Part shown: one piece after another, positions 15,630-19,489 of the stretch
How the letters are laid out: the number at the start of each line of letters is the position of its first letter
Numbering within the stretch: position 1 is the first letter of the stretch
Source of the DNA: Lachnospiraceae bacterium
Lineage (GTDB): Bacteria > Bacillota > Clostridia > Lachnospirales > Lachnospiraceae
NCBI GenBank assembly: GCA_017938485.1
Contig: JAGBBM010000099.1
Location: forward strand, 1 to 37,197
DNA: 37,197 nucleotides
Direction of reading: 5' to 3'
Program-made: the position numbers and the translations under genes
Notes under the pieces: model-generated
The model's database searches: none
What the model was told of the DNA's origin: nothing
What the model saw: only the letters and a program-made list of their open reading frames with translations

Positions 15630-17471
15630 TTAAAATGCACTATCCTCATTAGGATCGTAGTTTTCAAAACTTACCATTGGAATTTCTGAAACTGATTCTA
15701 CCTTTTCTTTTTCTACATCATCTTGTTCTTCATCTGTAGTTTGAGCATCTGTCTCATTATCAACAACTTCCTCTACCGCCTCTGGAGTTTCTTCAGAAGT
15801 AGATTCCTCTGTTGTTGTATCTTCTGTTGCTGTTTCCTCAGTTACAGTTTCTTCGGTTGCTGCATCTTCCACATCTGTTTTATTATCTTCAGATTCCTCA
15901 GCCAACTCAACTTCTTCTATCTTTTTTGAAGCATGTTCTGGTTTTGCCACCTTAGTTTCTTTTTTCTTGGTCTTTTCCCATGTTGTTAATTTTTCATTTT
16001 CCTCTTCAAGAACATCTAATTCTCTATTGAGCTTACCTATCTTACAACCAAAGGCAAAAAGACATACAATCAGGATAAGTAGCAATGCAGCCGCACCACA
16101 AATTATATAAAACATAATATCTGTAGTTAAGAAATCTGGTAAAAAACCATTTTCATCTTCTGGCTCGGCATCAACAACTGTGGCAACTGCATCACTTTCT
16201 GTTGCCACCTCAGGCATTGCATATCTCATAAAGGTACGCTCACCCATATCAAATATATAAAAGCCTTCCTCACCATCAAGATTCATACCATAAAAGATAT
16301 ACTTATCCCCGTCAAATACCTCTGGATACTGATATACCGGAATCTCATCTCCGAACATAATTGTCTGTGTTAAAACAAATCCCTCTGGGTATACCATATC
16401 CTCTGGGAATGGAAGTATAATATATCTGTTATATTTTGATGAATATTCTTTGTACTCTAAAAATGAACCATCTGTTTCATTGTAAATAAACCATTTTTCA
16501 ATACCTTGTTCATTTGAAAGACACATCAAAGTAATCTTTTTATTAGGTGATACATATCCAAAAATATCCCACTTATCATACTTGATAGTCGTTTTAGTGA
16601 AATTTTCTGGAGGTGTTACATCTTCTGGAGAATTAACTATGGTATAGTCCATACCATCAAGGTTGATAACTACATCCTCTAATATTTCACCTACTATTAC
16701 ATTTATAATATATTTCTTTACTGCGCCATTTTCTGCAGTAACTATAATCTCAACTGTATTTTCACCAGCTTCAAGTCCATCGTTACCAGACACACTGGTA
16801 GATGCCTCATCGTCATCAGGAGTTGCATTAATAGCAATTTCCTTTACGCCCTCATCAACTCTAAGAGTATACTCGTATGTGTCAGGATCAAACTCTGGCT
16901 CCAAAGTTCCCTGAGAAACCTCTAAACTAGAAAGATAGCAGTTAGATGATCTATCATCTTCTTCCTGGCTTGAGCTTCCGCCACCACCAGAGTTTCCACC
17001 TCCGCCAGAGTTTCCGCCACCACCGGAGTTACCGCCACCACCTGAGGTGTCTGGAGTTGAAACTGTTACCGACGCACTTCCGTAAGAAGTATTGATAAGT
17101 TCACCCTCAATACTAAGCACTTCACCGCTGGCATATATTCCACTTGTACCATTTGCAATAGCAGTAAATGATAAACTAGCTGTACCTGTTGATGTACCAC
17201 TTATAATTACTGTACCACCGCCACCATTTATAGTAGCACCTGAACCTGAATTATATTGAAGTACACTTGAATCATAAGTTATCCATAATGTATATGCACT
17301 TACATTGTCACCACTTATTGAAACACTTACTGTTACACCACCGCCTATACTTGCAGAGGAAGTGGCAGAAACAGAAACATATGCATCTGCTTTTGGATTA
17401 TAAACATTTATACTTAAGCACAAAACAAAGGCAAGAAGTATCGCTGTTAGTTTTTTATATATTCTCTTCAT
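15630..17471 (-). CDS. membrane-anchored surface protein with cohesin-like and cadherin-like domains and acidic cytoplasmic tail
   Basis: A 613-residue exported protein. Residues 1-30 are a signal peptide. About 31-138 fit a cohesin-type beta sandwich (GGGVTVSVSISGDNVSAYTL, then YDSSVLQY, then ASLSFTAIANGTSGI). A Gly/Asn/Ser linker follows (144-168), then a cadherin-like beta-sandwich at about 176-261 (YLSSLEVSQGTLEPEFDPDT...YIINVIVG). About 262-440 is an unassigned region. A single transmembrane helix spans 452-475, ahead of a short coiled segment and a Glu/Thr-rich acidic tail (about 517-590). Topology is therefore outside-helix-inside. The gene starts 24 nt after a dockerin-bearing cell-wall hydrolase gene, which supports a docking role for that enzyme. 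The cohesin call is by pattern, not alignment. Confidence 0.75.
   Translation of the reverse strand: MKRIYKKLTAILLAFVLCLSINVYNPKADAYVSVSATSSASIGGGVTVSVSISGDNVSAYTLWITYDSSVLQYNSGSGATINGGGGTVIISGTSTGTASLSFTAIANGTSGIYASGEVLSIEGELINTSYGSASVTVSTPDTSGGGGNSGGGGNSGGGGNSGGGGSSSQEEDDRSSNCYLSSLEVSQGTLEPEFDPDTYEYTLRVDEGVKEIAINATPDDDEASTSVSGNDGLEAGENTVEIIVTAENGAVKKYIINVIVGEILEDVVINLDGMDYTIVNSPEDVTPPENFTKTTIKYDKWDIFGYVSPNKKITLMCLSNEQGIEKWFIYNETDGSFLEYKEYSSKYNRYIILPFPEDMVYPEGFVLTQTIMFGDEIPVYQYPEVFDGDKYIFYGMNLDGEEGFYIFDMGERTFMRYAMPEVATESDAVATVVDAEPEDENGFLPDFLTTDIMFYIICGAAALLLILIVCLFAFGCKIGKLNRELDVLEEENEKLTTWEKTKKKETKVAKPEHASKKIEEVELAEESEDNKTDVEDAATEETVTEETATEDTTTEESTSEETPEAVEEVVDNETDAQTTDEEQDDVEKEKVESVSEIPMVSFENYDPNEDSAF
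16974..17042 (-). repeat. tandem repeat coding for the GGGGNS linker
   Basis: About four 18-nt units encode (GGGGNS)3-GGGG, residues 144-166 of the cohesin-like protein. It is a flexible spacer between the cohesin-like and cadherin-like domains and likely varies in length. Confidence 0.9.
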
Positions 17472-17495
17472 AACATATCTCCTTTTATCTTTGGG

Positions 17496-19376
17496 TTATT
17501 GAATAATCTCTAATCCAACAATGTGTCTTTGTACCTTAACAATATCTATAGTTGATACCTTACCATCCCCATTTATGTCAGCGATGAGTATATTGGCATC
17601 TGTTAGAGCATCTAATCCAACTATAATTCGTTGAACCTTAACAATGTCTATAGTTGATATCTTTCCGTCCCCGTTTAAATCTCCCTTGGCACTACCACCT
17701 ACTACAGTACTTCCTGCCGATGCAGTTCCTCTAACTACAGTGAGCTTATAAGTTCTCACATTTCCATTTTGGGCCGTAACATTAATATTGATATAGTTGG
17801 TTCCTTCCGCCAAGGATATTGTTCCAACGCCTCCAGATATTCTAGCTGTGGAATTAACAGTTGTTGCCTGAATATTGATTGAAGCAACACTTTGAGGAAC
17901 AATAAGGGAATAATTATTATTTGCATTTACTCCAAATGTAGGGGTAAGTGTGTAGCCATCTATAGTAAGAGTCTTCAACCAGTTATTAGGGTGTCCATAA
18001 AAGGTCGGTTTAGCTGACCTAATCTCAGGCATATTAAGATATACTGGAATCTCAAACACCATAGATGAACCAAGCATATTATTTTTAGCATACGCATTAT
18101 ATACACCCTGGCACTCTGAAGCAGGTGCCTGAACGTTAGTCATATACTGATGTGAAAACAAGTTGCCTGTGTTGGTTACGTTAAACTTCTGTGTATAAAG
18201 AGTATCCTGCCCAACACTTATATAAGAACGACCAAGGAAACTTGCTCCACCCTTTATAGCTTTTTCAACAGTATCCCAAGGTCTTCCATAGGTACCATTA
18301 GGCTGAGGCACACCACTTTCATTTACATTAGCAGCATATTTCATACCATTCATCAACGCATTAGCTCCGTCGTATGCACCTATATTAAAATAGTTGTAAT
18401 AGCTAACTCCATTGATTTTGTAGCTACCATCTGCCGCTGAACCAATGTTTGCACCCATCTCTTGCTTAATTCTTGATGCAATGTGGTATGGACTTACTCC
18501 ACTTTCCACTGCAGCAGCCATAATAACTTCAGAGAAAAGTCTAGTATCCGCTTTATCTGCAGTTACATCACACACTCTTGTGTTGTACATAAATGTACCA
18601 TTTAAAATAGCTTCAACACCCTGTGCATTATGAATTCCCGGCTGATAAGAAAGACTTTCAAAAACAAATACAAAGGTCTCATCAAGGTATGATCTTGGAT
18701 CAAGATAATATGTAACCAATGCATCAGATGCTGCAAACCAGTTTGAACCATCAAATGGATACCACTTATCGTTGGCAAAATCATATCCTACATTCGTAGA
18801 ACGCCAGTTATAATTTGGTGAAGATGATGATGTCCACACAAGATTTTTTACCTGTCCTTGTTTGTTGCACTCATTTGCAAGAAGCACGCTCCATTCAATG
18901 TTAGTATGAATAGCTTTAAACTCCCAAGTTGGATATTTGAGATGTAATGCACGAAGAGCATTCTTATAACTTTCAGGGAATCCCTCGGCTGTAAGTTTAG
19001 CTTCAAATTCTGCATCATCTAAAGGAATAGATTCCTCCACCCCTGGTGTAGTTTGCGTTGTTGCAAGCACATACTGTGATGCAACATAACCGGTATATGT
19101 AGCACCATTATAAGATGTAGAAATCTTAGTCCATGATGAATTACTTGTATCTAAAATGGTAACTGGATGTTCTGTGCAAAGCTGAATAGCATTGCCGTTT
19201 GCATCTTTTACCAAATTATCACCTGTTCCAGGACTACTTCTAAAATTAACCCAATCAGCTACAATCTTACCCGGTTGATTAGCCGAAACATGATTATCTG
19301 ACTCCCATGGGGTAATTGTAACAACCATCATAAGAATGGCTAAAAGTATTGCAATTATCCTTCTTCTGTATCTCAT
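17496..19376 (-). CDS. secreted cell-wall hydrolase: SH3 - glucosaminidase - cadherin-like - dockerin
   Basis: A 626-residue exported protein. A basic, hydrophobic signal peptide (1-33) is followed by an SH3b-type domain (about 37-105, VADWVNFRSSPGTGDNLV). A LytD-like endo-beta-N-acetylglucosaminidase region spans about 130-445; IASRIKQEMG supplies the candidate catalytic Glu306, with YYNYFNIGAYDG after it. A cadherin-like beta-sandwich (468-548) and a type I dockerin (566-624) complete it. The dockerin has two calcium loops, DLNGDGKISTID and DINGDGKVSTID, each followed by IVKVQR.IVGL, so the halves are nearly identical. The ATG has AGGAG 6 nt upstream. It is first in an operon with the cohesin-like membrane protein. 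Its role is likely peptidoglycan cleavage while docked at the surface. Confidence 0.88.
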   Translation of the reverse strand: MRYRRRIIAILLAILMMVVTITPWESDNHVSANQPGKIVADWVNFRSSPGTGDNLVKDANGNAIQLCTEHPVTILDTSNSSWTKISTSYNGATYTGYVASQYVLATTQTTPGVEESIPLDDAEFEAKLTAEGFPESYKNALRALHLKYPTWEFKAIHTNIEWSVLLANECNKQGQVKNLVWTSSSSPNYNWRSTNVGYDFANDKWYPFDGSNWFAASDALVTYYLDPRSYLDETFVFVFESLSYQPGIHNAQGVEAILNGTFMYNTRVCDVTADKADTRLFSEVIMAAAVESGVSPYHIASRIKQEMGANIGSAADGSYKINGVSYYNYFNIGAYDGANALMNGMKYAANVNESGVPQPNGTYGRPWDTVEKAIKGGASFLGRSYISVGQDTLYTQKFNVTNTGNLFSHQYMTNVQAPASECQGVYNAYAKNNMLGSSMVFEIPVYLNMPEIRSAKPTFYGHPNNWLKTLTIDGYTLTPTFGVNANNNYSLIVPQSVASINIQATTVNSTARISGGVGTISLAEGTNYININVTAQNGNVRTYKLTVVRGTASAGSTVVGGSAKGDLNGDGKISTIDIVKVQRIIVGLDALTDANILIADINGDGKVSTIDIVKVQRHIVGLEIIQ

Positions 19377-19460: not shown

Positions 19461-19489
19461 ATTATACCACAATATATTGTAGTTGTAAA
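19461..19489 (-). promoter_or_regulatory. promoter of the dockerin/cohesin operon
   Basis: TTTACA (19489-19484), a 17-nt spacer, consensus TATAAT (19466-19461). The spacer contains the perfect palindrome ACAATATATTGT (19469-19480). The predicted leader is about 78 nt. Confidence 0.85.

Follow-up and report, generated by a model that had tools for sequence, protein, structure and literature searches.

Cohesin-dockerin pairs are known chiefly from cellulosomes, whose type I pairs are among the systems closest to the modules considered here; the cohesin fold is a nine-stranded jelly roll. The cohesins of Clostridium perfringens NagJ are non-cellulosomal, and Peer et al. (2009) treat non-cellulosomal modules. 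Among systems that place cell-wall enzymes, the closest are SagB-SpdC of Staphylococcus aureus, where a membrane partner holds the enzyme or steers it (passages of PMC10581084 and PMC12272431), and the dockerin-bearing wall hydrolases of the Ruminococcus champanellensis 'lyticome', which join a cellulosome scaffoldin (passages of PMC6403190). Passages of PMC11557425 describe single-cohesin proteins with a C-terminal transmembrane helix as being of unknown function or possibly cell-associated, and discuss them as potential anchors of numerous dockerin proteins. Here we describe two adjacent genes, A and B, in a stretch of 37,197 nt from a Lachnospiraceae bacterium (contig JAGBBM010000099.1), the whole of which is called the window. 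Gene A encodes a predicted secreted wall enzyme with a dockerin, and gene B a membrane-anchored protein with a cohesin-like domain. The pair is real and widely conserved, recurring across Lachnospiraceae and found in one member of the Oscillospiraceae. A and B are probably a dedicated pair, in which a cohesin-dockerin clip would hold a peptidoglycan glucosaminidase at a membrane partner. The computed basis for this reading is the kinship of the domains, gene adjacency, dockerin-cohesin co-variation, agreement between the two repeat faces of the dockerin and a conserved tail motif. No description of such a two-gene pair was found among the open-licence papers listed in literature searches or in passages of PMC6118326, PMC10581084, PMC12272431, PMC2914790, PMC11557425, PMC12997984, PMC12484212, PMC6403190, PMC5817068 and PMC3573020.

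Domain make-up of the two proteins

Genes A and B both lie on the minus strand, 24 nt apart, with A upstream of B. An earlier note on this DNA had proposed two open reading frames with this spacing under one promoter; the frames are borne out, and a promoter-like site was found upstream of A, by consensus match only. The features are as follows.

17496..19376, minus strand: gene A, secreted SH3-glucosaminidase-cadherin-like-dockerin protein, 626 aa
19281..19376, minus strand: A signal peptide, residues 1-32, judged by eye from the sequence
19059..19262, minus strand: A SH3-like domain, about residues 39-106, limits set by eye
18027..19016, minus strand: A glucosaminidase domain, about residues 121-450, with the invariant Glu306 in SRIKQEMG
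17730..17939, minus strand: A cadherin-like domain, residues 480-549, PF12733, 33 bits
17520..17687, minus strand: A type I dockerin, PF00404, with two calcium loops, DLNGDGKISTID and DINGDGKVSTID
15630..17471, minus strand: gene B, membrane-anchored cohesin-like protein, 613 aa
17382..17471, minus strand: B signal peptide, residues 1-30, judged by eye from the sequence
17097..17372, minus strand: B cohesin-like domain, residues 34-125, from PF00963 and PDB cohesin matches
16947..17045, minus strand: B Gly/Ser-rich linker, residues 143-175, low-complexity and variable among relatives
16698..16934, minus strand: B cadherin-like domain, residues 180-258, PF12733, 48 bits
16206..16688, minus strand: B membrane-proximal domain of about 160 residues, roughly residues 262-422, conserved among relatives, no named family
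16059..16118, minus strand: B transmembrane helix, residues 452-471, mean hydropathy 2.96 over 20 residues
15633..16058, minus strand: B cytoplasmic acidic tail, 142 residues, 34% Asp/Glu
15633..15659, minus strand: B C-terminal motif YDPNEDSAF (YDxxxDSAF), 27/31 genus B proteins
19461..19489, minus strand: promoter-like site upstream of A, TTTACA-17-TATAAT with TG, 11/12, consensus match only

The domain order that the earlier note had read in the secreted protein A (SH3, glucosaminidase, cadherin-like domain and two-loop type I dockerin) stands, with the SH3 match lying below its cut-off (Pfam SH3_3 at residues 65-103, 23.6 bits against 27) and the enzyme being SagB-like. Dockerin_1 (PF00404) matches residues 564-619 at 40.5 bits in the protein scan, against a cut-off of 22.9. 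The NCBIfam SagB glucosaminidase model matches residues 266-433 at 57 bits (E 1.6e-15), with a naming cut-off that is far higher, at 425, and a Pfam scan of the enzyme region alone returned no family. Searched against the PDB, the enzyme profile has 6fxp (E 3e-17) and 6u0o chain B (E 6e-17) as its top matches, and autolysin chains such as 6fxo and 4pi7 rank next. We take 6fxp and 6u0o chain B to be SagB, and 6u0o to be SagB with SpdC; the PDB entries carry other names. By these matches, the enzyme domain is kin of SagB and is not SagB itself. Glu306 is invariant in 18/18 aligned rows and is the predicted catalytic acid.

Protein B likewise has the parts assigned to it before, namely a cohesin-like domain, a Gly/Ser linker, a cadherin-like domain, one transmembrane helix and an acidic tail, with a borderline cohesin score. 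The cohesin model PF00963 gives 27.4 bits on the N-terminal piece alone (cut-off 24.1) and 23.8 bits, slightly below the cut-off, on a longer piece of the ectodomain, and it has no match in a Pfam scan of full-length B. Of the 17 PDB chains that rank highest with a profile of the N-terminal domain (E 1.9e-5 to 0.4), 11 are named scaffoldin or anchoring cohesins, four NagJ and two Endoglucanase; the NagJ and Endoglucanase chains are presumably cohesin modules. Aligned by hhalign to one distant cohesin, the domain matches weakly (probability 32, E 5e-4, 38 columns).

Two parts of B come in addition to the earlier description, the membrane-proximal domain of about 160 residues and the YDxxxDSAF motif. 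For the former, no Pfam or NCBIfam model matched the window's B at E up to 0.1, and a PDB search with a joint profile of the cadherin-like and membrane-proximal domains gave no hit at E up to 10. Residues 452-471 are the sole strongly hydrophobic stretch besides the signal peptide, which would place the tail on the cytoplasmic side. The motif follows a variable, low-complexity stretch of the tail, and a similar motif stands close to the C-terminus in 27/31 complete B proteins of the genus, the exceptions being the B of locus L091 and those of three genomes with an internal dockerin (G-numbers denote genomes and L-numbers loci in our survey labels). This count started from 32 rows, with one A fragment excluded, and three B proteins cut by contig ends are uncounted. 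In the source genome a back-translated pattern of the motif matches once, at B, and is uninformative alone because the reversed control pattern matches twice. Many B tails of other genera end in an acidic IDLD-like sequence, by a rough pattern, and in several relatives of B the tail is only 5-16 residues long.

The source genome is a draft of 2.43 Mb in 137 contigs, 87.6% complete. In the genome search, its single cohesin match is B (27.1 bits, E 6.9e-6) and its single dockerin over the cut-off is A (44.6 bits), with a second, weak dockerin match elsewhere (11.9 bits). A cellulosome, taken as a multi-cohesin scaffold with many dockerin enzymes, was not found in this 87.6%-complete genome. A tRNA-Thr gene with a terminator-like hairpin precedes the pair.

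Conservation, co-variation and the two dockerin faces

The genus sample comprised 37 genomes. A dockerin scores over the cut-off in 35 of them, the remaining two being 71% and 64% complete, and 29 of these 35 have exactly one dockerin match (E up to 0.01). Among the A loci retrieved for 34 dockerin-bearing genomes besides the window, 33 have B directly after A, with gaps from -17 to 191 nt, which makes 34/35 with the window included; in G006, the 35th genome, the contig ends within B and a cohesin piece is visible. Downstream of B lies glnS in nearly all loci that are long enough (L083 has no glnS there), and upstream of A many genus loci have a sigma-factor gene, with extra genes inserted between in several. 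B changes fast, with 31-51% identity to the window's B in loci where B is the best match, versus 86-96% for glnS; in L090 the best match to the window's B is a different protein. The cohesin of the group with dockerin code YK is divergent and was recovered (E ~1e-10) by a profile built without that group. In G021, G035 and G036 the dockerin is internal to A, where it separates the SH3 domain from the enzyme; B begins with a cohesin-like domain there too.

Extra dockerin proteins occur in a few genus genomes (G019-G022 and G032), some of them in clusters of their own. G021 has a second cohesin-dockerin cluster (L082:3124-11069), in which an 1810-aa Amidase_6/CHAP/PG_binding protein ending in a dockerin precedes two proteins, 334 and 497 aa long, whose cohesin matches exceed the cut-off. 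G020 (L096:4730-16528) has three proteins that carry a dockerin together with LRR, transglutaminase-like or DUF285 domains, and G019 has similar pieces (L098); in G020 these proteins adjoin a 753-aa protein with a cohesin match of 22.7 bits, slightly under the cut-off. The second-cluster dockerins of G020 have the code SQ/SQ and its A dockerin has AL/AL, and the second-cluster codes are also unlike that of A in G019 and G021. Weak cohesin matches were also seen away from the pair in G005, G008, G011 and G014 (L023, L027, L031 and L021), in proteins from 311-residue frames.

Among named genomes, a scan gave 61 loci, overlapping heavily with the genus genomes and mostly from Lachnospiraceae or Clostridia metagenome-assembled genomes (MAGs) of gut and rumen, with few isolates such as Eubacterium sp. 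MSJ-21. The full pair, a dockerin-bearing A beside a cohesin-matching B, is present at 53/61 loci. The others comprise one B without a cohesin match, two B beside a dockerin-less A, three loci with neither, and two dockerin-bearing A for which no B was found (L159, and L102, which is cut by a contig end). L152 and L154, which both have the pair, come from MAGs whose titles read Mollicutes and Bacilli.

A family sample of 150 Lachnospiraceae genomes, one per genus, was hit by the A enzyme profile in 73, by the dockerin in 44, by the cohesin in 59 (50 over the cut-off) and by the profile of B's cadherin-like and membrane-proximal domains in 105, some via the cadherin part alone. The dockerin adjoins B in 24/44 dockerin-bearing genera, with G111 and G054 uncertain. 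A survey of 77 A genes, drawn from 71 of these 73 genera (the window's genus and G045 left out), found a dockerin, by its own profile, on 30, of which 28 have B directly downstream, and 27 of these 28 B match the cohesin profile (the exception is in G125). The two dockerin-bearing A without B are in G111, where the neighbour is slightly under the threshold, and in G134, a genome with 22 dockerins. The possibility raised in the earlier note, that the two genes might rarely be adjacent in relatives, thus fails in genus and family alike. In a class sample, the B profile matches 40/196 genomes at E up to 1e-10, many via the cadherin part alone. In Vescimonas fastidiosa MM35, an Oscillospiraceae member from the human gut, a gene for an SH3-glucosaminidase-dockerin protein lies 10 nt upstream of a B homologue (L303:2792-6299). 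The annotations of the two read 'dockerin type I domain-containing protein' and, for the B homologue, 'cadherin-like beta sandwich domain-containing protein'; the cohesin-like domain of the latter scores weakly (17 bits with our own profile, no Pfam cohesin match). The dockerin protein there is also annotated 'polysaccharide catabolic process', which is doubtful given its wall-enzyme domain. Searches of viral contigs gave no relative, and those of plasmid records gave partial matches only, Vescimonas among them.

The presence of the dockerin changes about four times on a tree built from the 71 enzyme domains that have B adjacent. Two candidate accounts of this distribution were rejected or scaled back. 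The first is mutual replacement of dockerin and multiple SH3 domains as a law: multiple SH3 domains are in 0/28 dockerin-bearing versus 13/24 dockerin-less A (Fisher p 3.9e-6), and this exclusion is close to one event because the multi-SH3 proteins form one or two tree groups, with about four dockerin changes over the 71 rows. The second is the dockerin as a late addition; it is on most branches of the unrooted tree, and its loss in two clades is no less likely.

The co-variation between dockerin and cohesin is specific. It was measured by partial Mantel tests of pairwise distances, from which pairs whose B ectodomain is short were excluded. For the genus genomes with C-terminal dockerins (n=26), the partial r between dockerin and cohesin is 0.656 (p 0.0002) after removal of enzyme and B-ectodomain distances, with 0.108 (p 0.17) for dockerin and ectodomain and -0.046 (p 0.67) for enzyme and cohesin. 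With the internal-dockerin genomes added (n=29), dockerin-cohesin is 0.447 (p 0.0002) and dockerin-ectodomain 0.354 (p 0.001). Mere linkage of neighbouring DNA was rejected as the cause, since the A cadherin-like domain, which lies between enzyme and dockerin, shows no co-variation with the cohesin: the cohesin gives -0.219 with this domain versus 0.655 with the dockerin in the genus (n=25), and 0.103 versus 0.505 outside it (n=40).

The dockerin also keeps two matching recognition faces. In 66 dockerins including that of the window, the calcium-loop positions D1, D5 and D12 are retained in 66, 63 and 66 for loop 1 and in 52, 47 and 65 for loop 2. Positions 10-11, which we take to be the residues that set specificity, read TI/TI in the window and are thus symmetrical. 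Across 82 distinct dockerins beside B they are identical between the repeats in 57, against a mean of 12.0 and a maximum of 22 in 5000 shuffles that disregard kinship among the rows, and 18 different symmetric dipeptides occur. The 82 rows cover loci with a short or split enzyme match, including L204, L205 and L207; without such loci the count is 52/66. Positions 7, 9, 13, 14, 15, 17 and 18 match above every shuffle and position 3 marginally (53 versus a maximum of 52), whereas 2, 4, 5, 6, 8 and 16 are within the shuffle range, and 1 and 12 are too constant to judge. Gene conversion alone was rejected as the source of repeat matching, the same codon being used at positions 10-11 in 52/116 cases versus 43.6 expected from usage; over 18 dockerin positions the figure is 473/826 versus 389, and this modest excess is compatible with a degree of conversion or shared descent. 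Passages of reviews treat symmetrical dockerin surfaces and dual binding in general terms.

Neither residue is shared between the repeats in four rows, L204, L205, L207 and L241. The near relatives of the clade of L204, L205 and L207 have a Gly/Ser tail and no dockerin, and the C-terminal dockerins of these three were perhaps regained or are perhaps single-faced.

Proposed clip and competing readings

Under the reading of a dedicated pair, A would be secreted and would cut glycan strands of the cell's own peptidoglycan, as its SagB-like domain suggests. B would display its cohesin-like domain at the outer end of the linker, beyond the cadherin-like and membrane-proximal domains, and the A dockerin would bind this cohesin, probably in a calcium-dependent manner. 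Docking may thereby keep A by the membrane, where new strands arise, and prevent its diffusion away. The acidic tail of B and its conserved end motif probably contact a partner in the cytoplasm, which would place the pair or read it out; an inside function for B is fitting because the motif near its cytoplasmic end is so widely kept in the genus.

Several results weigh against this reading. The Pfam cohesin model scores over its cut-off at the B locus in only 9/37 genus genomes, and matches 29/58 B ectodomains at E up to 0.1. Of the 47 dockerin-less A genes, 24 have B downstream (24/52 A genes with B adjacent); such A carry several SH3 domains or a Gly/Ser tail, and the B beside them keeps its cohesin-like domain. 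B-family genes without A sit directly downstream of LytR-CpsA-Psr ligase genes at 7/10 loci scanned (L215, L217, L220, L223, L228, L229 and L248), the ten having been chosen from 13 and the scan covering only the directly upstream gene. The cohesin-like domain of B must therefore have a dockerin-free use. The co-variation is not confined to the two modules, as the genus dockerin also co-varies with the B cadherin-like domain (0.472) and, outside the genus, the enzyme domain co-varies with the cohesin (0.519) and the A and B cadherin-like domains with each other (0.362). The species in the Mantel tests are related, hence not independent, and such tests tend to be liberal. Finally, passages of PMC6403190 read cellulosomal dockerin-bearing wall hydrolases as lysing other bacteria.

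The alternative that survives best, although we regard it as unlikely, is that the cohesin-like domain of B is only an Ig-like spacer or binds some other target, such as a wall polymer or a different protein, that the A dockerin has another partner and that adjacency reflects a shared role in the envelope. This would agree with the borderline Pfam scores and with the retention of the domain where A is dockerin-less or not adjacent. However, the dockerin co-varies more with the cohesin than with the other parts tested, its two-faced form is conserved, and the source genome has no other cohesin match. Slightly less probable again is a pair that acts mainly as a sensor, in which docking of A reports enzyme supply, calcium or wall state via the tail and tethering is secondary. 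The conserved motif after its variable stretch would suit a sensor, as would the reported interaction of SpdC with the kinase WalK, but B has no known signalling domain, Cadherin-like being the only family above the cut-off in full-length B (Pfam and NCBIfam), and the tail appears dispensable in those versions where it is very short.

We think it improbable that the clip serves to expose A at the cell surface for attack on the walls of other bacteria, in the manner of the 'lyticome' idea for cellulosomes. Lysozyme activity and several dockerin-bearing wall hydrolases are reported for the Ruminococcus champanellensis cellulosome in passages of PMC6403190, yet a household role fits better here, given that almost all of the genus has one SagB-like enzyme and a receptor dedicated to it, and that this receptor crosses the membrane once and has a cytoplasmic tail. 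A cellulosome remnant or small relative, with B as a mini-scaffold for several dockerin enzymes, shares the same modules and could call on the extra dockerin proteins of five genus genomes, but is very improbable, since most genus genomes have a single dockerin match and the extra dockerins of G019, G020 and G021 bear another code and lie near cohesin or cohesin-like proteins of their own.

The dedicated clip thus remains our preferred reading. The proposal of the earlier note, that the pair tethers a wall hydrolase to the membrane, gains from the conserved pairing, the specific co-variation and the two matching faces, and is too simple in view of the 24/52 A genes and the 7/10 loci named above. 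As cohesin-like B also stand beside dockerin-less A and LytR-CpsA-Psr ligases, the B family is wider than the clip, and its place next to the ligases suggests a wider family of membrane partners for envelope enzymes. More tentatively, and with less confidence than we place in the clip, B may represent a broad, undescribed family of single-pass receptors in gut Clostridia, each serving one envelope enzyme (a glucosaminidase or a LytR-CpsA-Psr ligase) through shared outer domains, with a cytoplasmic end motif directed to a machine inside. In many genera the link to the glucosaminidase would be a one-to-one cohesin-dockerin clip whose two dockerin faces are both under selection despite a single cohesin, so that the two-faced mode would not serve merely for packing large cellulosomes.

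If the clip is real, a cohesin-dockerin plug takes part in wall growth in gut bacteria with no visible cellulosome, which would suggest how a free autolysin stays where it is needed. It would also offer a likely partner for part of the lone dockerins of Clostridiales that were set aside as non-cellulosomal; because the B cohesin is often below the model's cut-off, the pair could explain part of the class described in passages of PMC6118326.

Comparison with described systems

The likeness to SagB-SpdC lies in an enzyme kin to SagB and in a membrane protein that would hold or steer it. The difference is that B is single-pass and has no CAAX-protease match (Pfam, E up to 10), and that the link here is a predicted dockerin-cohesin pair. 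As in the 'lyticome', a wall hydrolase carries a dockerin; in place of a cellulosome scaffoldin, the present locus has a two-gene pair with a single-pass membrane receptor. B resembles the single-cohesin proteins with a C-terminal transmembrane helix, but would belong to a fixed pair with one enzyme instead of anchoring many dockerin proteins. NagJ cohesins are among the weak PDB matches of the B domain (E 0.038 to 0.1), and they sit on a secreted glycan enzyme, whereas the domain here is on a membrane receptor. With the type I cohesin-dockerin pairs of cellulosomes, the locus shares two calcium loops, matching recognition residues in both repeats and an adjacent cohesin-like partner; it differs in having one dockerin, on a wall enzyme, and one membrane-anchored cohesin-like domain.

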